Assembly (NCBI RefSeq): GCF_020085105.1
Contig: NC_058056.1
Location: forward strand, 19,950,429-20,014,428
Direction of reading: 5' to 3'
Length of the DNA: 64,000 nt
From: Siniperca chuatsi
Taxonomy: Eukaryota > Chordata > Actinopteri > Centrarchiformes > Sinipercidae
The notes under the pieces are model-generated. The model was not told the DNA's origin. It searched no databases and worked only from the letters and a program-made list of their open reading frames with translations. Positions 3,612 to 64,000 of this stretch are shown here, in pieces. The first letter of the stretch is position 1, and each line of letters begins with the position of its first letter. The position numbers and the translations under genes are program-made.

Positions 3612-4048
3612 CTATAGGATGATGCAGGGTTTCTTGTCCTTGAAAGGGTTTTCGGAGGTGGGAACCCCAACCAGCAGAGGGTCGCTACGAGCGTGCTGCT
3701 CACAGTAACTCATCAGTTCTGCTGCTGCTTTAGACACCTGACAGGAGAGAAGGAGGGGTGAGGGAAGGCCGGGGGTGGGGGGGACAAGAAAAAGAGGATG
3801 GTGGAAGATGGAGGACAGGAGAAAAGGGAGTTGTGAGGGAGGTAGATGAGAGAGGAAGCAACAGGAGGAAAAATGAGAAAGAGAAAGGTATAAGGAGAGA
3901 ACAGTCAGATGTGGATGAATAATCACACTCACACATACACAAACATGGCAGTAAACTATTGTCCTACCTTAATGCGTTCAATCCCTGCCTCAATCCTCAG
4001 CTGTTCCACCAGTTTCCTGGCCTGGGCGATATTATTAGTGGTAGACAT
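3612..4048 (-). CDS. gng7: G protein subunit gamma-7
   Basis: Small gamma subunit that pairs with G-beta and anchors the heterotrimer to the inner plasma membrane. Two coding exons: 3968-4048 (ATG at 4046-4048, donor AAG|GTAGG) and 3612-3737 (acceptor CTGTCAG, stop TAG). They join in frame to 68 aa, the length I recall for mammalian GNG7. The N-terminus [20 protein letters not shown] and the [19 protein letters not shown] block are diagnostic. The C-terminus is a CIIL CAAX box; a final Leu predicts geranylgeranylation. GNG12 was considered, but it has a longer N-terminus and TCIIL rather than PCIIL. The coding exon probably starts near 4062, just after a GGTGTAG acceptor. Human GNG7 and DIRAS1 are neighbours on 19p13.3, and diras1 follows here at 17.5 kb in the same orientation. 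Confidence 0.95.
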
Positions 4049-17538: not shown

Positions 17539-18628
<1,090 letters not shown>

Positions 18629-19649: not shown

Positions 19650-20230
19650 ATAAAAATTAAAGCTGCTCTAATCAATATTTTCATATTAACTATGGATCAA
19701 ATAACTATGTATGTGTGAAAGGTATTGCTCTATTATCACAAACTCTGCAATTCCATTTAGCTCTACAGAGCCTTTAGGCATCTTTCAGCTCATTGTTTTG
19801 GCTTTACAGCCTGCAACTTAGGTTCAGTCTCAAAGCTCTCATAGCCTCATTTCTAGCAGCAGCAGCAGACATCTGTTTTCATGGAAAAACTCTGATAAAC
19901 CAACTGTACGCTACCTACCAAGCACCAAATGACAGACAGACAAAGTTAGCAACTAGCTCGTGAACACAGTGGAGCATTTAGCTGCCTACAAAGCAGATAT
20001 TTCCCTCAGAAGTTAAGGAGACCAAAAACAGAGCTAAAATGAGGATGAATACTGGACTTAAATTCACCAGAAACACAACTCCAAATGAGTGATAATGTTG
20101 CTCCGTATCTGCTGGATGTGTATATAGGCAACTAATGAGCAACTGTTTGCTAACAAGTTTGCCATATCAACTTAAAAGGTGATGATATGTCATTGTTGTG
20201 TTGACAGCTTGTTGTGCTACACCTAAGTGG
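19650..20230 (+). repeat. interspersed repeat family R3, copy A
   Basis: Shares ordered blocks with 54110-54660 (same strand) and 21790-22335 (opposite strand): CTAATCAATATTTTCATATT, GTGGAGCATTTA, AAATATTTCCCTC-type, GAGACCAAAAACAGAGCTAAAA, AGAAACACAACTCCAAATGA, CTGCTGGATGTGTATATAGG and CTAACAAGTTTGCCATATCA. About 560 bp, no ORF. Confidence 0.75.
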
Positions 20231-34801: not shown

Positions 34802-43416
<8,615 letters not shown>

Positions 43417-45480: not shown

Positions 45481-45715
45481 GCTGGAGTGCCAGCAGAGGG
45501 CAGCCTGCATCTATTTATGAACACAAAGGCCTTTGGGAAACAGCAGAGAGATGAGGAACATTAAGTCTGAAGTTTCTACATGTGCTTAATAAGTCCACAG
45601 GAAGATGTAACCTGTAGTCACTCCACCTCATCTCTCCCTTTCAGTTTCACAAGGACAGGACTTTTTTGCATCGCTGCTCCTCTGAGTTTAAGATCTTATG
45701 TCACAGAGCTGTCTG
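45481..45715 (+). pseudogene. relic of an Ig light-chain V promoter (V2 type)
   Basis: Colinear with the V2 upstream region 47430-47735: a GCCAGCAG(A/G)GGGC block, CTACATG, CTCCACCTCATCTCTCC(C)TTTCAGTTTCACAAG(A/G)ACAGG, an octamer-like TTTTGCAT (45664-45671), and CTGCTCCTCTGAGTTTAAG followed by TCATGTCACAGAG. After about 45715 similarity stops; there is no leader, V exon or recombination signal, so this is the 5' flank of a lost or truncated V gene. Confidence 0.65.
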
Positions 45716-46062
45716 ACAGAGAAACTATTACAGTCTCAGTTTTATATCAGTTGATACATGATTAAATGATGTTTTTTGATGACAATAATTTCAAAACTCA
45801 TATTAAGCAGAACTGAAATATGTTATTTATCTACAGTTAAACCCTGTAAGTAAATTAAAGGCAGACAAACAGATATATCATACCAACCACAGTGGACACA
45901 AACTTATCCTTAAATCCTCAACTGCACTTCTAATATAAATGTTTTCTTCTATTCCATTAAGATCATAGATTTTGTTAATCCAAGCAGTATTCCTCCTGAT
46001 TTTGTGTCCCACGTTGCCTTCAGTCTGTTGAGAGCAGAGAAATCATTTCCATAGAGAGGAGG

Positions 46063-46105
46063 TTTTGCATCGTCAGCTGATCTGCAGTGAACTGAGAAGG
46101 TTTAT
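46063..46105 (+). promoter_or_regulatory. V1 promoter: octamer-like and TATA-like motifs
   Basis: TTTTGCAT at 46063-46070 matches the Ig octamer ATTTGCAT in 7 of 8 positions, about 100 bp before the leader ATG; GGTTTATAG near 46098 is a possible TATA element. The same layout is kept at V4. Confidence 0.55.
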
Positions 46106-46171
46106 AGTTCTGTGAGTTCAACACTGCAGGACTCAGATCTGTCAGTCAACACAGCAGAAACCACAACCACC

Positions 46172-46642
46172 ATGACTCTCATCACCATCCTCATCTGGAC
46201 GCTGGCCTGCTGCTGTTTCACAGGTTCATTCACTCAGCAACATTTCAAACATGATGTGCTGTCTTTTCTCTCATTTATTTCTGCTGATAAATGAATGAGT
46301 TGTTTTTGTCTGCAGGATGCAGCGGTCAGGTGACGGTGACTCAGCCTCCAGTAGTGACATCTACTCCAGGATCCACTGTCACTCTCACCTGTAAGACCAA
46401 CCAAGCTGTTGCAGGGTGTGGTAGTGATGGCCAGTGTATGTTCTGGTATCAACAGAAATCTGGACAGCCTCCAAAGCTCCTAATAAGACATGTCAGCATA
46501 AGTCATTCAGGAACACCAGCTCGGTTTAGTGGCAGTGGAAGCAGCTCTGACTTCACATTGACCATCACTGGAGTTCAGACTGAAGATGCAGCAGTTTATT
46601 ACTGTAAGAGTATTCATGTAATAAACAGTGCTGATGTGTTCA
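46172..46642 (+). CDS. Ig light-chain V segment V1 (kappa-like)
   Basis: Germline variable segment for an immunoglobulin light chain. Leader exon 46172-46223 (hydrophobic [18 protein letters not shown], donor ACAG|GTTCAT), intron, V exon 46316-46642 (acceptor TCTGCAG). FR1 [20 protein letters not shown] with canonical Cys in LTCKTNQ; FR2 [16 protein letters not shown]3 [16 protein letters not shown], then [11 protein letters not shown]1 carries two additional cysteines (codons at 46417 and 46435) in C-GSDGQ-C, unusual for a light chain. No stop or frameshift. A 12-spacer recombination signal follows directly. The kappa-like FRs, the V-side 12 spacer and the four-segment cluster fit teleost L1/L3-type light chains; the isotype needs phylogeny. 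Confidence 0.92.
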
Positions 46643-46670
46643 CACAGTGATTTGTCGTCGTACAAAAACC
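46643..46670 (+). promoter_or_regulatory. V1 recombination signal (12 spacer)
   Basis: Consensus heptamer CACAGTG (46643-46649), 12-bp spacer, nonamer ACAAAAACC (46662-46670). Confidence 0.95.
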
Positions 46671-47430
46671 TCCCTCAGTCAGACTGCAGAGACACTGAGC
46701 TGTTACAGCAGGAACCGACTGCAGCTGCTGAAGAGGAAGAGACTCTGACACAGACCACTGAACACACAGCTGACAGTAACCTCACCAAGCACAAACTACA
46801 GATTCACACTAATATATTGGCATATTTTATATATTTTTATTTTCTTTCATTTTGATTACATATTTCTCAACATTGTAATACTTTATTTAAAGAAGAATCT
46901 TTTCTTGATGTTGCTGTTTAGTGTGGCGAGAAAGTTCAGGTATTTGGGATGGTCAGCTGAAACACAGAGGGCTCTAAACTAAATACACTGAGGTCAGATG
47001 GGTTTACTGTTACAGTTGGAGAGTTTTAATAAGAAAAACTGATTCCAACAAAACAGACAACCTGACAGCAGGTGGCAGAGGAGAAGACAAACTGTGGACA
47101 CAGGTAAAATACTACAAACGCAGGGTGAGGACGCAACAATGAACTGGCAGACACACTGTGAAACAATAATCAGGGGGCACTACGGACAATCAAAACTGGA
47201 GGAAAAAGACACAAAGGCAGGAAGTAAAGTTGAAAACAGAGGTGAGCATTACAAAATAAAACAGGAAATGACTGAACTCAAGACCCAAACCATGACATTT
47301 ACATCTCATTATCCTAAATGCAACACCTGGATCTGGAAAATAAGAATGACATACATGACAATGAAATTAATGAAGAAATTCTAAATCAATCAAAAATCAC
47401 TTTTAAGTGAGTTCAGTGTCTACACAGTTT
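46671..47430. other. V1-V2 spacer
   Basis: The first 130 bp (to about 46800) are shared with the V4 3' flank. The rest is AT-rich with no exon recognised. Confidence 0.5.
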
Positions 47431-47447
47431 GCCAGCAGGGGGCGCTA
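47431..47447 (+). promoter_or_regulatory. CTCF-type motif upstream of V2
   Basis: GCCAGCAGGGGGCGCTA is a near-consensus CTCF core, 0.34 kb upstream of the V2 leader. A related GCCAGCAGAGGGCAG is at 45490-45504 in the relic promoter. Confidence 0.5.
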
Positions 47448-47667
47448 TAGACCTGTTAATGAGGACAAAGGTACGTGAGCAGATAAAGAAATAAAAAGGA
47501 GAGTGTTTACAATGAAGAAAAGCACGATGAAAAGGAGCATGAAGTCAAACTTTTCTACATGGACTTTAATTGGCCGAATGATCCTCAAGATGAAGAACTC
47601 TCACTCCACCTCACCTCTGCTTTTTCAGTTTCACAAGAACAGGTGTGTGTTTGCCTTCTTAAATATA

Positions 47668-47675
47668 TTTTGCAT
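47668..47675 (+). promoter_or_regulatory. V2 octamer-like motif
   Basis: TTTTGCAT, 7 of 8 match to the Ig octamer, 98 bp before the V2 leader ATG and at the same relative position as in the relic and in V1. Confidence 0.5.
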
Positions 47676-47772
47676 GAATTTTATGCATCACTGCTCCTCA
47701 GAGTTTAAGTTCTCATGTCACAGAGAGTCTGAACTGTTTTCATGCACTCACACTGAAAGCTTCATCAGGACG

Positions 47773-48279
47773 ATGTTGTCAATAACTCTGCTTGTCATGT
47801 TGGGTTTTCTGAGTCAGGGTGAGAAGTTTAAAAAAATGTTTGGTGTAAATCCAGTCTGTGCAATCCCTTTTTACATTTGTTTAAATGTGTTTATTACTGT
47901 CTTCTACTATAACCTGAACTGCTTCTCCCTCGGCTGGTAAACATTTCTCCTTAATATTTTTCTTTTCTCATTTCAGAGTCTTCTGCCAACAATTTTCTGA
48001 CTCAGGCTGACAAATCCAAGTCTGTTAGTCTTGGAGGGACTGTGACCATCAGCGCCACAGGGAGTTCAAATATTGGTGCTGATCTCAGTTGGTACCTTCA
48101 GAAACCTGGACAGGCTCCCAAACTTCTTATATACAGTACATCAACTCTCTTCTCTGGAACTCCGTCTCGATTCAGTGGCAGTAGATCTGGTTCTCACTAC
48201 ACTCTGACCATCAGTGGTGTTCAGGCTGAAGATGCTGGAGATTACTACTGTCTGGGTGACCATGGTGGTGGAGTGTTCA
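47773..48279 (+). CDS. Ig light-chain V segment V2 (divergent subgroup, lacks Cys23)
   Basis: Leader exon 47773-47818 ([15 protein letters not shown], donor GG|GTGAGA), V exon 47977-48279 (acceptor TTTCAG). Mature start [22 protein letters not shown]2 [17 protein letters not shown]3 [20 protein letters not shown], then EDAGDYYC; germline CDR3 LGDHGGGV. The frame is open, but the first canonical cysteine is replaced: the sequence reads TISATGSS where light chains have TISCTGSS (GCC codon at 48054-48056). The intradomain disulphide cannot form, so it is either a pseudogene by function or a non-canonical domain. Only about a third of residues match V1, so it is a separate subgroup. Signal sequence and recombination signal look intact. 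Confidence 0.88.
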
Positions 48280-48307
48280 CACAGTGATTTAGAGCCGTAC
48301 AAAAACC
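48280..48307 (+). promoter_or_regulatory. V2 recombination signal (12 spacer)
   Basis: Heptamer CACAGTG (48280-48286), 12-bp spacer ATTTAGAGCCGT, nonamer ACAAAAACC (48299-48307). Confidence 0.95.
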
Positions 48308-49100
48308 TCCTTCAGTTTGACTGAAGTGAAAACGGCCTGCTGCAGGTGCAGAGGGTTGGTGTAGAGACTGTGATGAGGATAACTGGTCCAGTGAACACAA
48401 CACAAGAGTCATCAAGCAGAACCACAATGAATCTAAATAAAACTGAAACAAACTCACAGACGCTCTTCCAGACACAATTTTAGACTTATAATCTCATCAG
48501 TTTATTCAGTCTTTTTATGAGTAAGCAGGGAAATGAAATTCTTGTTGGACTACAGACACTGATATCAAAAATATTTAACAGTGTCGCTACTGATAGCTGC
48601 ACAAAACAATTTAATGTAACAACAGTCCAAGCAGAAACTAAAATTCACAATTTATTACTCTTCATTTTGAAAATCCAAATGATGTCATTCTCAAAATGGA
48701 GAATTTTCTATTCAAAGTAATACATATACAACCATCTCCTGTACTATCAGGTATAGGATAATGTCAGGTATGATACTGACAATGTTTTTCATAATGAATA
48801 TATTCTAAAAGAAATACAAAGACACTGACTCATTATAATCCACAGTTTTATCTAATGATGGTTTAATGTTCATGCCACATTTTTGATGATTGAGATTCTC
48901 TTGGAGTGAAACTACCAATAATCAGTTTAATTTGAAAAGTAATTAACATAAGAAGAATATGCAGAAGATCAGTATTAGAAAGCAACATGCACACTAAAAC
49001 ACTGAGTAGAGAGCTGTGAAAATTGCAGAAATATCTGAACAGAGGAGCTCTGTAGCTTCATCGAGATCTCTGTCAAAGAAGCAGCATCATTTCCAGACAG
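48308..49100. other. V2-V3 spacer
   Basis: AT-rich; inspected on both strands for an Ig constant exon and none was found (no frame of about 100 codons with Cys-Trp-Cys spacing). Confidence 0.5.
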
Positions 49101-49513
49101 GAAGTTCATTCACTCAGCAGCATTTCAAACATGATGTGCTGCCTTTTCTCTCATTTAGTTCTGCTGATAAATGAATGAGTTGTTTTTGTCTGCAGGATGC
49201 AGCGGTCAGGTGACGGTGACTCAGCCTCCAGTAGTGACATCTACTCCAGGATCCACTGTCACTCTCACCTGTAAGACCAACCAAGCTGTTTACAGAGACA
49301 GTGAAGGAGATGACTATATGCACTGGTATCAACAGAAATCTGGACAGCCTCCAAAGCTTCTAATAAAATTTGTGAGCACACGTGAATCAGAAACACCAGC
49401 TCGGTTTAGTGGCAGTGGATGCAGCTCTGACTTCACTTTGACCATCAGTGGAGTTCAGACTGAAGATGCAGCAGTTTATTACTGTCAGAGTTACCACAGT
49501 GGTGGAGTGTTCC
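49101..49513 (+). pseudogene. Ig light-chain V segment V3, leader exon missing
   Basis: The V exon (49196-49513, acceptor TCTGCAG) is open, with the same frameworks as V1/V4, CDR1 around [11 protein letters not shown] and CDR3 QSYHSGGV. The preceding intron matches V1 from GTTCATTCACTCAGCA onward, but similarity ends exactly at the leader donor: upstream is CATTTCCAGACAGGAA instead of the leader, and no octamer or TATA counterpart is seen. FR3 also has SGSGC where V1 has SGSGS (extra Cys). The V exon could still recombine or act as a conversion donor, but it lacks its own signal peptide and promoter as written. Confidence 0.85.
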
Positions 49514-49541
49514 CACAGTGATTTGTCGTCGTACAAAAACC
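49514..49541 (+). promoter_or_regulatory. V3 recombination signal (12 spacer)
   Basis: Heptamer CACAGTG (49514-49520), spacer ATTTGTCGTCGT identical to V1, nonamer ACAAAAACC (49533-49541). Confidence 0.95.
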
Positions 49542-49977
49542 TCCCTCAGTCAGACTGCAGAGATACATCTAATGACGCCAAATCACATTCGGCTCAGTTG
49601 GAAAGAGAGACAAATGTTGCCTAATCACATATTCACAAAATTGATTGTTCAAGTTTTTTTTTATCATGATAAAAACATGTATTCTTTCCTTTTTCACGAT
49701 ACTATGTAATATCAACTTCAGTAACTCCACATAAAAAGCAATAGTGATGTTAATATTTACATGATCAATCCAAACCGTTTCTTTTTCCACAGAGAGGAGT
49801 ATCAGCTGAAGTTATAAAACCATTGAATTTCTTACTCCTCTTAGCTGAACTTCATAAATGTTAAAAATTATCCACAACATGTAAATTAGCCAAAATAATG
49901 TCTTGTTTTATCACATTATCATGCAAAATGTATTATATTATTTTATGTTGTAGAAAATAAAAATCTCTGGTACTTAC
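49542..49977. other. V3-J spacer (would-be J-C intron), no C exon
   Basis: About 20 bp match the V1 3' flank, then divergent AT-rich sequence. This is where a minus-strand intron leading to a constant exon would start; no Ig constant domain is visible. Confidence 0.5.
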
Positions 49978-50015
49978 AGTCAATGATGAGTTTGGTTCCT
50001 CCACCAAAAGTCCAC
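49978..50015 (-). CDS. Ig light-chain J segment, opposite orientation to the V segments
   Basis: Read on the minus strand this 38-nt segment encodes [12 protein letters not shown] after the first base, the canonical light-chain J motif FGxGT. It ends at a good splice donor, GACT|GTAAGTA (GT at 49977-49976). Thirty-eight nt is the usual kappa-type J length. On its 5' side (higher coordinates) is a 23-spacer recombination signal. All four V segments are on the plus strand, so V-J joining would be by inversion. No constant exon was found on the minus strand downstream to V2. Confidence 0.92.
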
Positions 50016-50054
50016 CACAGTGATACAAACTCATTAAGTGGCCGTACAAAAACC
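50016..50054 (-). promoter_or_regulatory. J recombination signal (23 spacer)
   Basis: Minus-strand order: nonamer GGTTTTTGT (50054-50046), 23-bp spacer, heptamer CACTGTG (50022-50016) abutting the J. It pairs with the 12-spacer V signals under the 12/23 rule; 12 on V and 23 on J is the kappa (and sigma) arrangement, not lambda. Confidence 0.95.
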
Positions 50055-50394
50055 TCCTGCACTGTGAACAAGCTTTTATCCACTGAAAACTCTTTTTTTC
50101 AGGTAAAACTGCATAATTAATAATTGATTCATTGTACAAAAAAATTTAACTCATGTGGCTTCAAATTTCTTCATGAATCAAGATCATTTAAATTATTTTA
50201 TTGTAACTTTTAACTGTTAATTATTAAGTTCCACTTTAATATATTTATAATTATTATATTTATAAACTTATTTTACTTAACGTATTTGACTGTAAAGAAA
50301 AGGAAAAGTTTTTTTCAAAAAATCTTGACTTACAAGTCTATAACAAGAAGCTTTGAAATGTATAATGTACCCTATAGGTAAATATAGGAAAAGA
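50055..50394. other. J-V4 spacer
   Basis: AT-rich, no feature recognised until V1-like 5' flank begins near 50395. Confidence 0.45.
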
Positions 50395-50591
50395 AATAGA
50401 CATGTCATACCAACCACAGTGACACCATTTTAATCCAAACGTTGAACATCCTCAATTCTATTTCTAATCTATTTTTTCCCATCACAATAATACCATAGAT
50501 TTTGTTAATCCAGCAGTATTCCTCCTGATTTTGTGTCCCACATTGCCTTCAGTCTGTTGAGAGCAGAGAAATCATTTCCATAGAGAGGAGG

Positions 50592-50635
50592 CTTTGCATC
50601 GTCAGCTGATCTGCAGTGAACTGAGAAGGTTTATA
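50592..50635 (+). promoter_or_regulatory. V4 promoter: octamer-like and TATA-like motifs
   Basis: CTTTGCAT at 50592-50599 (7 of 8 match to ATTTGCAT) and GGTTTATAG about 30 bp later; the surrounding sequence is nearly identical to the V1 promoter. Confidence 0.5.
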
Positions 50636-50700
50636 GTCCTGTGAGTTCAACACTGCAGCACTCAGATCTGTCAGTCAACACAGCAGAAACCACAACCACC

Positions 50701-51162
50701 ATGACTCTCATCACCATCCTCATCTGGACGCTGGCCTGCTGCTGTTTCACAGGTTCATTCACTCAGCAACATTTCAAACATGATGTGCTGCCTTTTCTCT
50801 CATTTATTTCTGCTGATAAATGAATGATTTGTTTTTGTCTGCAGGATGCAGCGGTCAGGTGACGGTGACTCAGCCTCCAGTAGTGACATCTACTCCAGGA
50901 TCCACTGTCACTCTCACCTGTAAGACCAACCAAGCTGTTCATTCCACCTTTGCTCACGGTGAGCATATGTTCTGGTATCAACAGAAATCTGGACAGCCTA
51001 TAAAGCTCCTAATAAGACATGTCAGCACAAGTCACTCAGGAACACCAGCTCGGTTTAGTGGCAGTGGACGTAGCTCTGACTTCACATTGACCATCATTGG
51101 AGTTCAGACTGAAGATGCAGCAGTTTATTACTGTCAGAGTTACCACAGTCCTTGGGTGTTCA
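50701..51162 (+). CDS. Ig light-chain V segment V4 (kappa-like)
   Basis: Leader exon 50701-50752 with the same peptide as V1, V exon 50845-51162 (acceptor TCTGCAG). All canonical positions are present: Cys in LTCKTNQ, Trp in FWYQQKSGQ, Cys in [11 protein letters not shown]1 is around [10 protein letters not shown] and germline CDR3 QSYHSPWV. Open frame with intact signal peptide and promoter motifs, so this is the segment most likely to be functional. The 5' flank (from about 50395) and 3' flank (to about 51320) are nearly the same as those of V1, showing a recent duplication. Confidence 0.93.
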
Positions 51163-51190
51163 CACAGTGATTTGTCGTCGTATAAAAACC
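51163..51190 (+). promoter_or_regulatory. V4 recombination signal (12 spacer)
   Basis: Heptamer CACAGTG (51163-51169), spacer ATTTGTCGTCGT, nonamer ATAAAAACC (51182-51190) with C to T at position 2 relative to the other three. Confidence 0.93.
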
Positions 51191-51583
51191 TCCCTCAGTC
51201 AGACTGCAGAGACACTGAGCTGTTACAGCAGGAACCGACTGCAGCTGCTGAAGAGGAAGAGACTCTGACACAGACCACTGAACACAGAGCTGACAGTAAC
51301 CTCACCAAGCACAAACTACATGTATACATTAACATATTGGTATATTACACTTTATTTTTCAGACTTCTTTTGGTCAGTTTAGCAAAAATTGTATGAAGAG
51401 CTTTAATGACATCATGATGCATTTTTCACTATTGCAGAAGTGTACTTGCAGAACTATACTTCATTCCACTATTTTCCCCAGTCCTCACAAATTAAGGTTA
51501 TTTTCATTCCGAGATGTTAATTTTAAATGAAATCTCAGTAGAAGATATAAAAGTAGCCTACATTTACTCTAGTGCTGCATTAA

Positions 51584-51727
51584 AAGGACCAGTGTGTAAG
51601 ATTTAGTTTTGCGACCACCGTAGGTTCTCCTACATGCTTTGAAGGAGAGGGTGAAGCAAGCAGTATTCAGTTGGTTGCAATCTGTTACCTCACTGCTAGA
51701 TACCACTAAATCCTACACACTGGTCCT
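51584..51727. mobile_element. 144-bp MITE with TTAA flanks
   Basis: Inverted ends AAGGACCAGTGTGTAAGATT and (reverse-complemented right end) AAGGACCAGTGTGTAGGATT differ at one position. The element is flanked by TTAA at 51580-51583 and 51728-51731, the piggyBac-type target. It sits inside a family S fragment (CTACATTTACTCTAGTGC before, AGTACATTTTTGAGATACTT after). Confidence 0.8.
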
Positions 51728-51774
51728 TTAAGTACATTTTTGAGATACTTGTAGCTACTTGAATATTCCCATTT

Positions 51775-53222: not shown

Positions 53223-53699
53223 ATGTCACATGCTACGTTTAATGCAACAGCTTTGATCTTGTTTAGAAAACTCTTATTTATAATTCCTTTCAATAACTTT
53301 TTTCTTGTGAGTGAGTGTCATCTAATCAATTAATGATCCCAAAACATGATTGATTGGAGGATGTAGAACATACATGTTAGCAAAAATGGTGTTGCACGTG
53401 TTGACCTTGTCCACATGAGAGCTAAATGCAAGTCACAGAGGTCAAAGTTCAAAGCATGGGATAGGAATAATCCTTTTAGGCAATGCTGTACCAGGAATTA
53501 GCTAGTCAACACTTCCTCTCTCAGACTGGATGAGCTCTTTACTGTGAGACAGGATCCACAGTTGATCAGTTTCACTGGCTGTCCTCCGCCTCGGATCTTG
53601 TGGGATACATACTGACCACCTCACTCACCAGGAGATTCGGATATCTGTAGTCACTCAGGGGGGAGGGGGGCCTGCTGGGATACGGACCAAGCCTGAATC

Positions 53700-56600: not shown

Positions 56601-59600
56601 GAATGAAATGTCAAAAATAATAACACCCATCACAAGTCACTAAATCACGTTTTTCATCACAATCACATTAATTAATTAATTATCAAATTTACAATCATTT
56701 AATTTTCTTTTGATCAACAAATAGATAAATCAGTTAATTGTTTTAATTAAACTACTGAAGGTACATTGAAACTAAATTATACAACTCTTTAATTCACTGT
56801 TTTGAAATGAGTTCAAAACTTAGCATTTCACAGTTTAAGCCAGAATTAATCGAACACCTCCTGTTTTCCCATCCAGTCTTATGTCCGGCCTGTCTGCCAT
56901 GGACACAAAGGCAAGCGGTCGGCTGGGAGTCCTGACCATCACCTACTACCTGTGGACGACCTTCATTGCTGTCATCGTCGGCATCGTGCTTGTGCTCATC
57001 ATCCACCCGGGGACGGGCTCAGAGAAAGATGGCCACCATGCAAGTTCAGGGCCTGTTATGACCTCCGCTGACGCTCTGCTGGACCTCATCAGGTTAACAT
57101 ACACAAACGCTATCACACTTTGACAAAGTGATGGGAATGCTGTCATTTAAACATTTACCTTACTGAAAGAAATGGGTGCACAATAAAAAGATTTCATAAT
57201 ATCAACCGTAAATCTATTTGCGATATAATTCTTCCTTCCATGAACAAGACTTAGAGTTTACAGCCATGTTAGCAGCTCTGTGAGGCTGCACTTAGGCACA
57301 GCCGAAGGCAAAGTCATCAAGATTCATCATCTGAGAACCATGAATGTCTACACAAACTTTGGTGCCAATCCATCTAATAGAGAGAGATATATTACCGGAT
57401 AAGTGAAAATTTTAACTTGCTGGTGGCACTAGATGAAAACTCTGGGGATCCTCACAGTCATTGGAATTCATCCTCTGGGCACCATGAATATACGTACCAA
57501 ATTTCATGGCAATCCAACAAATAGTTGTTGAGACACTTCAGTCTGGACCAAAGACTTACAGATTGACATTGCAATCCGTAGAGCCATGTCGTCTCTTCTT
57601 TCAGTCAGCTAGGTTAAGCTGTTCTTCCTTTTTAGCCTTTCATGAGAACAGCTTACAGGACTATACAGAATTTTGTCAAAGTAAACAAAAAAACAAATCA
57701 GCCTTTCCAAGATTTGTCTTCCATTTGTTGCATGTTCCAAAGCAGATTTCCCATCAAAAACAATAAAAAGACATTGTGACATAATTGGGGTCTCTGCTAT
57801 TTTTGGATCTGATAACTGGAAAAAGTACTTCCCATCTGTACTTCCTTCTCCTATAAGATTGAGAAAGTCTCCCTCCTGGTATGTGCTTTTCAGGAAATTC
57901 CAGATTTTCCAACTATCTTATTAGTGTTGTTTTCCAGGATGAGGATATGTTGTGTAATACCCTTTAACACCTGCGAAAAATCAGTACAGACCAGTTAAAT
58001 CCAGTAAAGATCCACCTTCGACCTTATGACCTCCCTGTGCTTCCTCACAAACAGTAAGCTCCTTAATTGCAAAATCTCAAGGCATCAGTATGCCTGGGAG
58101 CTCTTCACTTTCACAACAAAACAAGGAGACATCAGAAATCATGAAATCCTCTGCAAGTAAAGCTTCCTGAAAATATGGTTTCTTCTAACATTTAGTGAAC
58201 TCCAAGGACTGTTTTTATATATTATAATACAACAAATAAAATGGCAGCACATTTGAATTGATTATTACATATTATAAAACTAATCAAAATCTGAATCTAC
58301 ACTTTTTGTCAGCAGGGGAAGCATTTCAGCATTAAATTATAAAGGAGAAGCAAAAAATAAATAAAAAATTGCTTGTAAGATAGTTGCAGTGTCACCCTTA
58401 TACGCAGCAGGTTGGCTAAGAATAGGGAGACACTTGTGATCTGTTAAGCCTGCCCTTTCTCAGAAGATCCTTGGCCAATGTTACACTCTATAAGATGGAT
58501 CCTGCAGTCTGGTGTGTGTGCTCAGGCTTACTGCAGGGCCATTCATGTCAGAGATCCACTAATACCTCCTTCTCAATCCTGATTGTTGTAGTGAGCTGTG
58601 CCCGGTGTGTATCTCTTGCTGTAAGCCAAAGGTCAGGTGTACATTTCAGTCTTCTTAAGTGTTTGACAAGCTTTCTGCCTGGCTTCAGTGTCATTGACGC
58701 ATGCTGTAAATACAGTCCCAGTACATGACGCCGGCTGTGCCCATGCACCTTCCACCTTGTTAACATGTGAAGGCCTCTCTCTGTTTTCCTATGTGGTGTT
58801 AAAGTGTATCCCCTGGTTTTGTTGGAGTTTATTTTGTTGCTATTCTTTTGTTGCGTGTAAAATAGAAATTAATAGCCTGATCTCTGTAGGAACAGAGATC
58901 AGGCTATTAATAATTCCACCTAATTACAACAGCCAGTGGTGTAGGACATATTCAGATCATTTACTGAAGTAAAAGTAGCATTTCCACAAAATAGAAATAC
59001 TCAGTTTCAAGTAAATGTCCGTTTTGAAAATGTTACTTAAGTAAAAATGCGTAGTTATCACCAGCAAAATGTATCAAAAGTAGTCCATGCAGAAAAATGC
59101 CCCCTTGTGAGTGTTATACTATTATATTTATTATATTAAGAAATTATACTACTGATGCATTAACATGTAAGTAGCATTTTATTGGAGCTAATTTAGCTTT
59201 ATATGTTATTTACTGATGGGTGGTTTAATTAATAATAATGCATCGTATTTTTATAATTTGCTCTGTTTTCCATGTAAAATCTTTATATGTAAAGTAACTA
59301 GTGACTGCAACAGTATAAAGTGAAATAGATATATTCACGTAAAGCACAAGTACTTCAGAGTTGCACAGAACTTCAGTAAATGTACAATTCACCACTGCCA
59401 ACAGCCAGTGTCATTACAATATTACCTCAACTAATGTTATCTAGCTGCAATCAGACACTAATACAGATGTACAGCAGGTAAGACAAACTATATAATAAGT
59501 AATTGTATTTCTTACATGACACTGGTTAGTCAGAAATTCACCAAAATTTCTAATGAAACTTGTATCTCAATGTGTAAATTAAATAACTTCATCAATACAC

Positions 59601-62600
59601 CGCAACTTCTTCTGCATTTAAAGGAACAATTAGCTCATGTTGTACCAGAAGAAAGAAAACAGCTACTGCCTTCTTAAGCATTTCATATCTGTTTCAAACA
59701 TAAGATTCAGAAATAAAAACAGTTAAGAAAACAATCTCACCACAAGTTCCATTTAGAAGCTGTGCCGGTGCCTTCGATCATATCACGTAATCCTCATCAG
59801 CAGTTTTTAAGACATTGTTGATGTTCAAATTGCCATTTTCTTCTCAGCACTTTTAGGACTTCTCGCCCTTGATGGCTTAAAAGTTGAGGTTTGAAGTTTA
59901 TTGTATTGAGAAAACAAGGTCCATTTAGTAGCTGTTCTGGAGCCTTCATCAGTGGAAATCTACAACTCCATGAAACTGGGCACACTCCATCTGCTGATCA
60001 AGATCATGTGATATGAAAACTCATACTATATTAACCTTGGATTGTTTTCTCCACTGCTGTTTCCAAGGTTAAGATTGAACTTTGACCCTCATAAGAAAAA
60101 CATGTACAAAAGTCTTCAGCTCTTTATATGCACTGTAAAATAGCAGTGGGACATATTCAAATTGAATTTATTTGCCAGGCTGTGTATTGTTTGTTGAATT
60201 CTATATTTCACTACAGAACTGATCTGATATATTTGTCTGTATCTTTTCTTTTATAGGAACATGATCCCGTCAAATCTAATTGAAGCAACTTTTCAGCAGG
60301 TGAGTGGACAAAAGGAGGAAACTCACATTGGATTGCATAATACTTTTAATTAATTCAATGTTCAAAATCCACATATTAACAAATCTCTATGTGTTTGTTT
60401 CATCCCACTCCAGTATCGAACAGACCTGGTACCTACTATACAGAACTCTGATATAAAAGATTCCCAGGCCAACTATGTATATATCATGCCCGACTACCAC
60501 AACCCTCAATTGGGCCACCCAGTCTTCCTGGAGATCACCCCTGCTCCGGACATTAGGTATAAAATCGTCCCCAGTACAAGCAAGGGCATGAACGTATTGG
60601 GGATTGTCATCTTCTCGGCTACCATGGGTAAGACAATCACACAGCTCATTATATCACAAAAAGCATCCCAAAACCCTAACCCTTATTTATTCAAGTATAA
60701 TCCTTTTGGTACTACTTTCTAATAAGCCAGCCTCTATAAAGGGTTTATAGGTTGTTACTAATAGCTTCATTGGTTGTTAATAAATCTCATGCTAACTAAT
60801 GCTTTATAGTTACCAAGCCAGTATTACATCACATTATAAACCATAACAACCTTTGGGTTGACATGTTGTGAAAAATTCCCCTGGCTGGTGTTTATTCTGC
60901 TGAAAATGGCCCTGATATAATATATATTATGAGACTGTTTTTGATGCATTAATGGTTAAGCAGTATTTTACTGTTGTTGTAGGTTGAGGTGGATACAGTT
61001 AGGTAGTGTAGTCTCATGGTTCCCAACCTAGGGCTACCGCCTTAAACTGTTAACGAAACCTTTTGAGAGGAGAAATGGTGGAACTGCTAACAACTCATAG
61101 ACATCAGAAATGTGCCAAGGGGCCCCAACTAGACAGCTTTTTTGAAAGGTGTCATAAGCCAAAAAGGTTGGGAACCAGGCTCAATCTTTAACAATGCATT
61201 CTGTTTTATGTAAAATCTTAATCTCAAAAGTAAATAGGGACCACAGCTCTCAGATAAATGTAGTGGGAAAAAGTACAATAAGTAGCTGAAAATGGAATTA
61301 CTCAAGTAAAGTACAAGTATCTTAAGATTCAGTACAGTGTTGGAGTAAATGTACTTAGTTACTTTCTACCACTATTAATTATTTACGAACATTGTCAATT
61401 GCAGACATGATAGCCATCCAAAGGGAGTTTTCACAACTACAAAGTTGCTCTTATTAATGGCTTATATCTGATCTATAAAGCATTAGTAAATGATTTATTA
61501 ACCATTAAGTAATTAGGTACAACTTACAACCATTTATCAGGGGTGAGTTGTAAGACAGTTGTACCATAATTACTAACTACAAAAACACATGTGAATGTAC
61601 TGTCTGTTCTCAGGTCTGCTGCTGGGGAAGATGGGAGAACGTGGCGCGCCGCTGGTCAACGTGTGCCAGTGCATCAACGAGTGCGTCATGAAGATCATTA
61701 ATGCTGCTATGTGGTAAGATTGCACTCTCACACACACACTTTTAAAAATAGACTATTTTGTCAGGCACGGCAGACTACACACTGTTCGCAGAGCAGAGCC
61801 AGATTATATCCAAAAATAAATCTCACATAGCAACTCAGGGAAGAGTCACTGGTGGCGTCTGAAGTGTCCTTACTGCTTTTTACAGGAGCTGATGAGCCGA
61901 CTCTTGGATTACAGCAAAGAGGCCCTTTCATAAATAAGATTAACACTGAATAATCGTAAATACAAATACAATTGGTTGGGATGGTGGACACTTGAGAAAA
62001 CATTGTGGCCACCTGTTACACCCATATGTGATTTTTGAACATCTCATTCCAAAGTCACAGGCATTAATCTGCTGATGTAACAGCCTCCAGCTTCTGGAGC
62101 CTGGCTGAAGGGATTTGCGCACATTCAGCCATAAGAGCATTAGTGAGGTCCAACACTGATGCTGGGCAATAAGACCAGATAAGGCTCCCAGTCTGCATTC
62201 CAATTAATCCCAAAGATGTTCGATGGGGTTGAGGTCAGGCCAGTCAAGTTCTTCCACACCAAACTCTGAAAACCTTTCTTTATGGACCTGGTGTTGTGCA
62301 CAGGAGCATTGTCAAGTTAAAAGACAAAAGAGCCTTACCCCTGAAGTTTGAAATTTCAAAAGTTTTATTTGTTACTTTCTCATACAATGTGTGCGTTGAA
62401 ATGCAGGGTGTTATAAATTTGAGGAAGTGCTGAGAAGGTTAGTGTGCAATAAAGAATGACAATCAGAAGAGTAAAAATAAGAGTTTGAGAAATAAATGAG
62501 GCATAAAAATTCTAGAACAAAACATTTATAAATATATGTATGTATGTACTTTATATGTATATAAAGTACATATCTGTTGGATCTGTATGTGGGCTATGCA

Positions 62601-64000
62601 TTTTTTAAGTATAGAAGAATATAAGCATGCTAATGTCTAAAATATTACTGTAGCATCAACATTTCCCTTAATTGGCACTAACCAAACCAGACCAAAATTG
62701 CACACAAGTATGTGGACAGGGTCTATATCCTTTTTGGCCATATAGTGTATGAATAAACCTAATGTATCACAGGCTAAGTACACAATGTCTTTGATGTTGT
62801 AGAATAAAGCTCTTGATTTTGTTCTTTTCACATTATAAGAAAGTGAAGACCACTGACTGTTTCTGTTGTGTAAATACACATGCTCAGCCAGAAGGTGCAG
62901 TGTGAGATCAACACTTTCACAACAACGTCCATGACCACGATCTTCTCTCCCTCCTCTCCTCCATGCAGGTACTTCCCCTTTGGCATTGTGTTCCTTGTGG
63001 CAGGGAAGATCCTGGACATGCACGACCCGGCCCACCTGGGAGAGAAGCTGGGCATGTACTTCATCACGGTCCTGTCTGGATTGTTTGTGCATGGCCTCAT
63101 CCTGCTGCCTCTCTTCTTCTACTTCTTCACTCGCAAAAACCCCTTCACGTATATCAGAGGGCTGCTGCAGGCTCTTGTCATTGCCCTGGCCACGTCATCC
63201 AGGTAAGAGGAGACAGGTTTGTTTTTTTATCCCAGCCAGGTAGATGTAGTCCAGTGTCTTGGTTCTCTCTGTCTAAATGGACATGTTTGAGACTGGAGCC
63301 CATTGAGTACCCTGACCTGACCGTTTCCTCTTGTTCTCTTCCTCTGCAGCTCTGCCACATTGCCAATCACCATGAAGTGTCTCCTGGAGAACTGTGGAGT
63401 GGACCGGCAGATCGCTCGCTTTGTGCTGCCAGTGGGAGCTACCATCAACATGGATGGAACAGCCCTGTATGAGGCAGTGGCGGCCATCTTTATCGCTCAG
63501 GTTAATGAGTATGACTTGGACTTTGGCCAGCTGGTCACTATTAGGTGAGAATAAACACTAAACTCATTAACCCCCCATGATAAGTTTTTTGTGTCAAGAA
63601 CTGATTTATTTTACATCTCTAACATCCCGACTCTTGTCTCATCAGTATAACGGCAACAGCAGCCAGCATCGGGGCAGCTGGGATACCTCAAGCTGGTCTG
63701 GTTACCATGGTGATTGTCCTGACCTCTGTGGGGTTACCGCCTGCTGACATCTCGCTGATTGTGGCCATCGATTGGGTTCTGTGAGTCCCACAAAATTATT
63801 ATACTATATAAAGCATCAGTGGGCTTTCTAGGGGCTGTTGGGACATTGTGTAAATTATTTTTTCCACCCCTTTCACAGTGATCGCTTCCGGACGATGATC
63901 AATGTTCTTGGTGATGCCTTAGCTGCTGGGATTATGGCTCATTTATGTAGGAAGGACTTTGAGAAAGCAGCCACTGCTGCTGCAGCTACTACCACTGCTG
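53700..64000 (+). CDS. EAAT5-like glutamate transporter (SLC1A7/8/9-type), 3' end outside window
   Basis: Na+-coupled acidic amino-acid transporter with associated anion conductance, plasma membrane. Exons: 53700-53867, 55796-55875, 56877-57092, 60257-60299, 60414-60627, 61614-61713, 62969-63202, 63350-63544, 63646-63780, 63879-64000 (cut). All are GT-AG and phases match throughout, giving about 502 codons. Landmarks: [20 protein letters not shown] (TM1), [20 protein letters not shown] (TM2), [20 protein letters not shown], the serine-rich hairpin [19 protein letters not shown] formed across exons 7/8, [15 protein letters not shown] (TM7), [20 protein letters not shown] (HP2), and [20 protein letters not shown] (TM8). 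Closest recalled relative is human EAAT5; which teleost paralogue (slc1a7a/b, slc1a8, slc1a9) is unresolved because the variable C-terminus is missing. The start could equally be the second Met (53703). Confidence 0.93.
54110..54660 (+). repeat. interspersed repeat family R3, copy C
   Basis: Intron 1 of the transporter gene. Blocks ATAATCAATATTTTGATATT, GTGGAGCATTTATCGGCTAA, TATTTCCCTCAGTAGTTGG, AGACCAAAACAGAGCTAAAA, CAGAAACACAACTCCAGATG and ACTGCTGGATGTGTAAATAG match copies A and B. Confidence 0.75.
57245..57560 (+). repeat. family D repeat, intron 3 of the transporter gene
   Basis: GAGTTTACAGCCATGTTAGC, AGATTCATCATCTGAGAACC, CTTGCTGGTGGCACTAGATG and CCAAATTTCATGGCAATCCA match the 32388-33065 copy. 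Confidence 0.75.
58868..58911. repeat. perfect 20-bp inverted repeat with 4-base loop
   Basis: Left arm ATTAATAGCCTGATCTCTGT (58868-58887), loop AGGA, right arm an exact reverse complement (58892-58911). In intron 3 of the transporter gene, just before a family S copy. Confidence 0.95.
58933..59397. repeat. family S element, about 0.47 kb
   Basis: Starts CCAGTGGTGTAGGACATATT and ends TACAATTCACCACTGCC, with AAGTAAAAGTAGCATTTCCA and GTAAAGTAACTAGTGACTGC inside. Confidence 0.75.
59745..60020. repeat. interspersed repeat (family E), copy 2, inverted halves
   Basis: CCATTTAGAAGCTGTGCCGG, GATCATATCACGTAATCCTC and CATCAGCAG match 44980-45150. The right part (CTCCATCTGCTGATCAAGAT, CATGTGATATGA) is an inverted version of the left. 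Confidence 0.65.
61190..61376. repeat. family S fragment
   Basis: ATTCTGTTTTATGTAAAATC, AAAGTAAATAGGGACCACAG, CTCAAGTAAAGTACAAGTAT and TAGTTACTTTCTACCACTAT; only the right end is kept. Confidence 0.65.
61960..62752. repeat. decayed DNA-element repeat ending TGGCCATATAGTGTAT
   Basis: Blocks TACACCCATATGTGATTTTT, GAACATCTCATTCCAAAGTC, GATGTTCGATGGGGTTGAGG, CAGTCAAGTTCTTCCACACC, GTATGTGGACAGGG and the terminal TTTGGCCATATAGTGTAT match a very common fish repeat. Lies in intron 6 of the transporter gene; frames in it are degraded. Confidence 0.65.
62544..62571. repeat. 13-bp perfect palindrome
   Basis: ATGTACTTTATAT, loop GT, then ATATAAAGTACAT. AT-rich hairpin inside the decayed repeat. Confidence 0.9.

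Follow-up and report, generated by a model that had tools for sequence, protein, structure and literature searches.

In the kappa-type (L1/L3) light-chain clusters described in teleosts, the variable (V) segments lie opposite to the joining (J) and constant (C) segments, V carries a recombination signal sequence (RSS) with a 12-nt spacer and J one with a 23-nt spacer, and V segments of the IGLV1 and IGLV3 types are mixed, the former, in torafugu, with alanine in place of the first conserved cysteine (torafugu, PMC5241823; zebrafish, PMC3014032; cod, PMC11223323). Other orientations are also on record: in cod, five kappa V run the same way as J-C (PMC11223323), torafugu chromosome 2 has three V oriented like C1g (PMC5241823), and in zebrafish both V orientations occur on two chromosomes and an 81-kb inter-cluster joint has been reported (PMC3014032). 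Here we describe a V cluster at positions 45,481 to 51,190 of a 64,000-nt stretch of the Siniperca chuatsi genome (assembly GCF_020085105.1, contig NC_058056.1, C15 below), which we call the window (C15:19950429-20014428). The cluster shares with the teleost clusters the opposed orientation, the signal types, the mixture of V types and the alanine substitution, and is unlike them in being inverted, set apart by two non-immunoglobulin (non-Ig) genes, deprived of both C exons and left with an orphan J.

The cluster does not stand alone, a point that is not visible in the window and was missed in an earlier note on this DNA. Past the window edge, 21-54 kb away, lies a complete V-J-C array (the main array), of which the cluster is a flipped satellite. 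The explanation that we favor, and hold to be rather probable, is that of a flipped, C-less satellite of a teleost kappa-type (L1/L3) array, whose segments V1 and V4, and perhaps V2, would be occasional donors to the J-C units of the main array.

Composition of the V cluster

As the earlier note had stated, the plus strand of the cluster carries four V exons, each with a 3' 12-spacer RSS, and the minus strand one J with a 23-spacer RSS and a splice donor; the description as a compact light-chain V cluster with an inverted J also stands, and the cluster is of the teleost kappa type (L1/L3). The RSS is perfect in V1, V2 and V3. With that of the J, four perfect 16-base signals (spacer 12 or 23) are seen in 64 kb, for which arithmetic gives a chance expectation of about 0.00006. 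All four V exons match the Pfam V-set domain (E 3e-13 to 4e-18), and the solved structures closest to V4 are kappa-like light chains and single-chain variable fragments. These matches, together with the promoter and leader organization described below, place the V segments in the kappa-type (L1/L3) family, an assignment made from such features and not from a tree.

V1, of the IGLV3 type, spans 46172..46670 (+), with the leader at 46172-46223, the V exon at 46316-46642 and the 12-RSS at 46643-46670, and is intact; its promoter motifs are ATTTCCAT at 46045 and TTTATA at 46101 (+). V4, also of the IGLV3 type, spans 50701..51190 (+; leader 50701-50752, V exon 50845-51162, 12-RSS 51163-51190), with ATTTCCAT at 50574 and TTTATA at 50630 (+). 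Its RSS has one nonamer change, and the segment is otherwise intact. Neither V1 nor V4 lacks any part: each has its promoter motifs, a leader exon of 52 nt, splice sites, an open frame and an RSS. The same ATTTCCAT/TTTATA promoter and 52-nt leader are found in torafugu IGLV3 (PMC5241823).

V2, of the IGLV1 type, spans 47773..48307 (+), with ATG at 47773, the V exon at 47977-48279 and the 12-RSS at 48280-48307. Its frame is open and a leader is present, while its promoter motifs are approximate matches (TTATGCAT at 47681 and TTTAAG at 47704, +). The first conserved cysteine is replaced by alanine, and so it is in all five IGLV1-type V copies found, namely the window exon at 47977-48279 and four main-array copies (C15:20042158, 20047196, 20058908 and 20066962, all −). 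The torafugu report considers that this trait may be torafugu-specific and describes such V as expressed (PMC5241823); as the fish studied here is not torafugu, the trait would seem to reach further. V3 is an IGLV3-type fragment at 49104..49566 (+), with the V exon at 49196-49513 and the 12-RSS at 49514-49541; its leader exon and promoter are deleted, and its homology starts at the leader-intron donor. The missing leader of V3 and the alanine of V2 are corrections to the earlier reading. At the left edge of the cluster, a weak remnant (45540..45716, +) shows broken similarity (63-85%) to an IGLV1-type V 5' flank.

The J segment has 38 nt (49978..50015, −), an intact frame whose peptide ends in LIID, and a splice donor, GTAAGT, at 49977-49972. 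Its 23-spacer RSS (50016..50054, −) is a perfect signal of 39 nt, identical at 39/39 positions, spacer included, to the signals of all five main-array J. A pattern search of the genome for these 39 nt, allowing up to 3 mismatches, found exact matches at 6 sites, all on C15, and matches with 3 mismatches at 17 sites, on contig C17. The 23-nt spacer of torafugu J1/J3 differs at 2/23 positions from the six identical C15 J signals (PMC5241823). The four V and the J thus show the 12/23 arrangement of a kappa-type cluster, and V is opposite to J in the window as it is to J and C in the main array. A C exon 3' of the J is lacking.

Search for a constant exon

In agreement with the earlier note, a six-frame profile scan detected no constant domain on either strand of the 64 kb, including the interval between V2 and the J. 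The best C-profile domain reached 0.6 bits, or 2.2 bits with a second profile from which the fish sequence had been left out. With the first profile, 10 shuffles gave at most 3.5 bits; with the second, a positive control, an approximate teleost C domain, gave 80 bits. That best domain falls on V3, and V3 is also the best human kappa match among the tblastn matches listed (49225-49503, E 0.007).

The earlier note had proposed that the C was either lost or too diverged to be seen. Divergence is ruled out, as the profile scans remain at background and the alignment described below shows exons that are deleted, not decayed. Loss is upheld, both C exons being deleted relative to the main array. The window J is an orphan because its C was lost, and it keeps a consensus signal and a splice donor. 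Among 18 J (6 on C15 and 12 in 90 kb of C17), it is the only one without a C within ~1.3 kb. Because no C is detected and two deletions are seen, the window cluster is a derived piece and not a complete V-J-C cluster.

The main array

The genome searched comprises 719 Mb in 65 contigs. When 130 kb beside the window were added, the 194 kb obtained in total contained no ambiguous bases (N), so that inspection for assembly gaps, advised in the earlier note, found none. The main light-chain array occupies C15:20035176-20068135, 21-54 kb to the right of the window, and contains 12 V exons (−), 5 J (+) and 7 C (+). Its 14 twelve-spacer signals (−) include two extra ones, which belong to a V pseudogene and to a weak signal without a V frame. 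All seven C score above the Pfam C1-set cut-off on the plus strand, 23-52 kb past the right end of the window; we take three to be L3-like and four L1-like, labels that come from resemblance and not from a tree. Two regular-expression matches, one C-like at C15:19929820 (−) and one J-like at 20082450 (+), lie beyond the limits of the array and have no RSS; they were put down to chance and left uncounted.

At least two genes, presumably of the SLC1A and ELAVL types, lie between the window cluster and the main array. The SLC1A-type transporter gene (56839..63545, +) has Pfam SDF exons at 56839-57120, 62874-63203 and 63321-63545; by eye only, it starts at 53697, in an open reading frame without Pfam match, and ends at ~65.9k, beyond the window. 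The ELAVL-type gene has Pfam RRM matches on three exons.

For two of the four main L1-type C exons (L011:6176-6571 and L013:3244-3639; C15:20040604 and 20057672), no J of their own was found, and a J-L3 unit lies upstream of both. In splicing, one V-J might have a choice between an L3 and an L1 constant exon.

Origin of the satellite

The matches listed between blocks of the window cluster and the main array are inverted in 70/70 cases, with identities of 70-100% (82-95% in the 20 of highest score). The minus strand of the cluster reads like a main-array unit, V - J - C(L3) - V - C(L1) - V(IGLV1) - V, except that neither C exon is present. At the first deletion scar, between 49841 and 49842, 1,332-1,333 bp are missing relative to three main units: the rest of the J-C intron, the L3-type C exon and its 3' end. 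At the second, between 49104 and 49105, the loss amounts to 1,234 bp, measured on one main unit; it took the leader and promoter of V3 and the entire L1-type C exon, and ends 12-14 nt past the stop codon of the latter. A minor third scar, between 49565 and 49566, where the post-C block meets the 3' flank of V3, lacks 129 bp that three main units have. The missing lengths of the first and third scars are consistent across the three main copies.

Inspection by eye revealed 2-nt overlaps at two of the three deletion junctions and no recombination heptamer at any of the three breaks. A V-J fusion, or a RAG-made germline joint, as cause of the C loss is rejected on the junction sequences, read without a statistical test. 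We conclude that the C exons were lost by two ordinary deletions, one per exon.

The J that most resembles the window J, signal included, is that of an L1 unit (99% over 96 nt), while the intron piece 3' of the window J matches the J-L3 intron; hence, the satellite unit is a mosaic. Block B (1.5 kb) differs by 2.8-3.3% from four main copies that are 2.0-2.8% apart, and block A (V-J) by 5.8-6.6% from three main copies that are 2.2-4.1% apart. By these figures, the satellite is a young, separate copy. Non-Ig flanks shared at the outer edges were considered as a clue to inversion breakpoints, and only short pieces with 62-84% identity were found. In several main units, the V 3' flank that the copies share breaks off near a common point, and the matching edges therefore look like a unit boundary rather than a breakpoint.

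The outermost V-J units of the satellite and the main array (window 49841-51334 and C15:20035035-20036523) form inverted repeats with 92% identity over 1.5 kb. As they flank the SLC1A-ELAVL interval, they could possibly serve as substrate for a recurrent ~33-kb inversion.

Joining geometry

The strands and positions of the segments in germline order served to enumerate all V x J joins, with only primary joins considered and the C starts taken as approximate. Within the main array, the 70 joins (14 main signals x 5 J) are all inversional, so that joining there loses nothing. Joins between satellite V and the satellite J are also inversional (4/4), as the earlier note had inferred for each V. 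To reach a J with a C, however, the V segments need no inversion: satellite and main array are oppositely oriented, so that each satellite V stands in deletional orientation to all five main J, each with a C ~0.9 kb past it (20/20 joins, with spans of 34.8-67.9 kb). All 20 joins would excise the SLC1A- and ELAVL-type genes, and those to the four later main J would excise 2 to 6 C exons as well. From the joins enumerated, the satellite V would be able to serve the main array, and the satellite J would serve nothing in the ordinary way. Spans of 35-68 kb need not be a bar to joining, as an 81-kb joint has been reported in zebrafish (PMC3014032).

After inversion of V1, V2 or V3 onto the satellite J, the latter would read on the plus strand, and the first C on its strand would be C3_20037, 37.3-40.2 kb away. 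One might think that such joints are spliced across these 37-40 kb to the first main C. However, the SLC1A-type gene intervenes in the same orientation, with its own exons and end, and V4 finds no C at all, so that we regard this as the least probable of the explanations considered.

The reverse combination, main V signals with the satellite J, is deletional in 14/14 cases, and in each the J would be left with no C on its 3' side. The satellite J, a 23-spacer signal located outside C and identical at 39/39 positions to those of the main J, could in principle be the teleost counterpart of the mammalian kappa-deleting element or recombining sequence (Kde/RS): main V with 12-RSS would join it, delete C exons and silence or edit the chromosome. 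All seven C would be removed with the last two of the 14 signals, some with 11 and none with one. At least one C is thus left by 12/14 joins, and one of the remaining two signals (20068) is weak and without a V frame. Furthermore, the support is geometric, and an intact J frame and donor are expected anyway of a recently orphaned J. We find this proposal improbable. If true, a B cell would delete constant exons, all of them with the outermost V, beside an array in which joining loses nothing.

Divergence of the complementarity-determining regions

The first complementarity-determining region (CDR1) of V1 (AGCGSDGQC) lies at 46411-46437 and has two cysteines inside; that of V4 (HSTFAHGEH) lies at 50940-50966. 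They differ from the CDR1 of each of seven main V at 15-19/27 nt, while the noncoding flanks differ from those of the same V at 2-15 of 395-426 nt. For CDR1 plus CDR2 against noncoding sequence, the satellite-main comparisons gave Fisher p values of 1e-15 to 2e-24. CDR1 differences among the 21 main pairs are 0-11/27. These comparisons do not include V3, the V pseudogene (20043), the V at 20051, which belongs to another group, or the V of the IGLV1 type. The CDR1 of the leaderless V3 is a single base away from that of a main V. As main pairs show it too, an excess of CDR differences is a trait of the whole family, stronger in the satellite.

Import of the V1 and V4 CDR1s from a neighboring V was considered and rejected: no donor match was found within 7/27 nt in the 194 kb, nor within 8/27 nt in 90 kb of C17. 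The pattern fits selection on two live V segments, V1 and V4, and could also reflect older V diversity.

These data bear on whether the satellite is simply a relic, that is, a decaying duplicate which never rearranged, or whose products were never kept, and whose intact V segments and RSS reflect its youth. Both C exons and one leader are already gone, a divergence of 3-7% leaves little time for decay, and the CDR excess is present among main V as well. On the other hand, promoter motifs and RSS are present in V1 and V4, both complete segments, and their private CDR1s are not expected from changes at the rate of the flanks. A pure relic is a possibility that deserves attention, albeit an unlikely one.

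An assembly artefact, in which a piece of the main array had been misplaced and wrongly turned, might be suspected because the block is just ~6 kb long and array-like. However, the 194 kb contain no N, and the satellite has its own divergence, its own deletion scars and CDR1s that lack any match within 7/27 nt in that interval. Mis-assembly appears unlikely on this evidence, and we give it very little credence.

Interpretation

We read the flipped, C-less satellite as follows. It is an array unit in inverted orientation, split from the main array by the SLC1A- and ELAVL-type genes. It has lost both C exons and one V leader through three deletions, and its J, with consensus signal and donor, is left without a C. 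V1, V4 and perhaps V2 would now and then join the main J-C by deletion over 35-68 kb, and each such join would cut the two intervening genes, as a loop, out of the chromosome concerned in the B cell where it took place. Joins to the satellite J would be dead ends. The loss of C and the deletional orientation of the satellite V toward the main J-C are direct observations. Long-range use of V1, V4 and perhaps V2 is what we infer from them, and for V1 and V4 it seems likely, since both are intact and have unusual CDR1s.

Several points weigh against donor use. V3 is dead, V4 has a changed nonamer and the V2 promoter motifs are approximate. Satellite use may be rare or nil, as main V lie nearer to the main J. 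The CDR1+2 excess is also found among main pairs (0-21/54, compared with 23-28/54 between satellite and main V), and distinct CDR1s are therefore no proof of present use. The basis is one assembly, DNA sequence alone, with the 6-kb block oriented as assembled.

In this locus, one chromosome harbors both joining modes side by side: inversions in the main array keep everything, and deletions between satellite and array are irreversible. Three questions can hence be put to a single species. Does the use of V donors that join by deletion differ from that of donors that join by inversion? Do B cells lose two non-immune genes in the course of making an antibody? And can an orphan J put an end to use of the locus? 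The satellite is also a stepwise example of how a V-J-C unit becomes C-less.

Other features and a second locus

A second, larger kappa-type locus lies on C17 (1.58-1.80 Mb and 3.44-3.68 Mb). In the 90 kb sampled there (L022-L030), each C has paired J and V is opposite to J-C; the C shows close likeness to the teleost L1 domain. In the window, Pfam matches indicate a G-protein gamma type gene (3615-3968, −), a Ras-type gene (17542-17907, −), which we take to be DIRAS-like, and, below the cut-off, a REEP-like gene (36072-36290, −; TB2_DP1_HVA22). A short element at ~51590-51735, with inverted ends by eye (ggaccagtgtgta...tacacactggtcc) and a relative at C15:20030466-20030593 (84%), looks like a miniature inverted-repeat transposable element.

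Comparison with known systems

In human IGK, a distal inverted V cluster lies apart from J-C, and human IGL holds non-Ig genes. The satellite is similar to these arrangements in forming a mirror-image V cluster and in joins that would delete unrelated genes. Unlike the satellite, the human distal cluster is not known to contain a J, and its polarity is reversed: human distal V join by inversion and proximal V by deletion.

Kde/RS is a signal outside C to which V joins by deletion, with removal of C (PMC3014032, PMC3570791), and the satellite J is like it in these respects. Unlike Kde/RS, the satellite J has a reading frame and a splice donor, and the likeness is one of geometry. The zebrafish report found no Kde/RS homologue in the authors' 2008 search (PMC3014032), and a 2013 review reports that most zebrafish C genes have RSS-like elements on their 3' side, reminiscent of a kappa-deleting system (PMC3570791, citing Zimmerman 2011). 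Our literature search, in which subscription papers were mostly out of reach, found no title on a C-less J cluster or an SLC1A/ELAVL neighborhood.

The minority V groups of cod and torafugu are, as here, in deletional orientation inside an inversional locus; in contrast with the window, no C-less J is reported for them in the text available. The finding described here is real and ordinary in kind, and what it adds to the known systems is an adjacent main array, two dissected deletions, a switch from inversional to deletional joining over two non-Ig genes and a J with Kde-like geometry.

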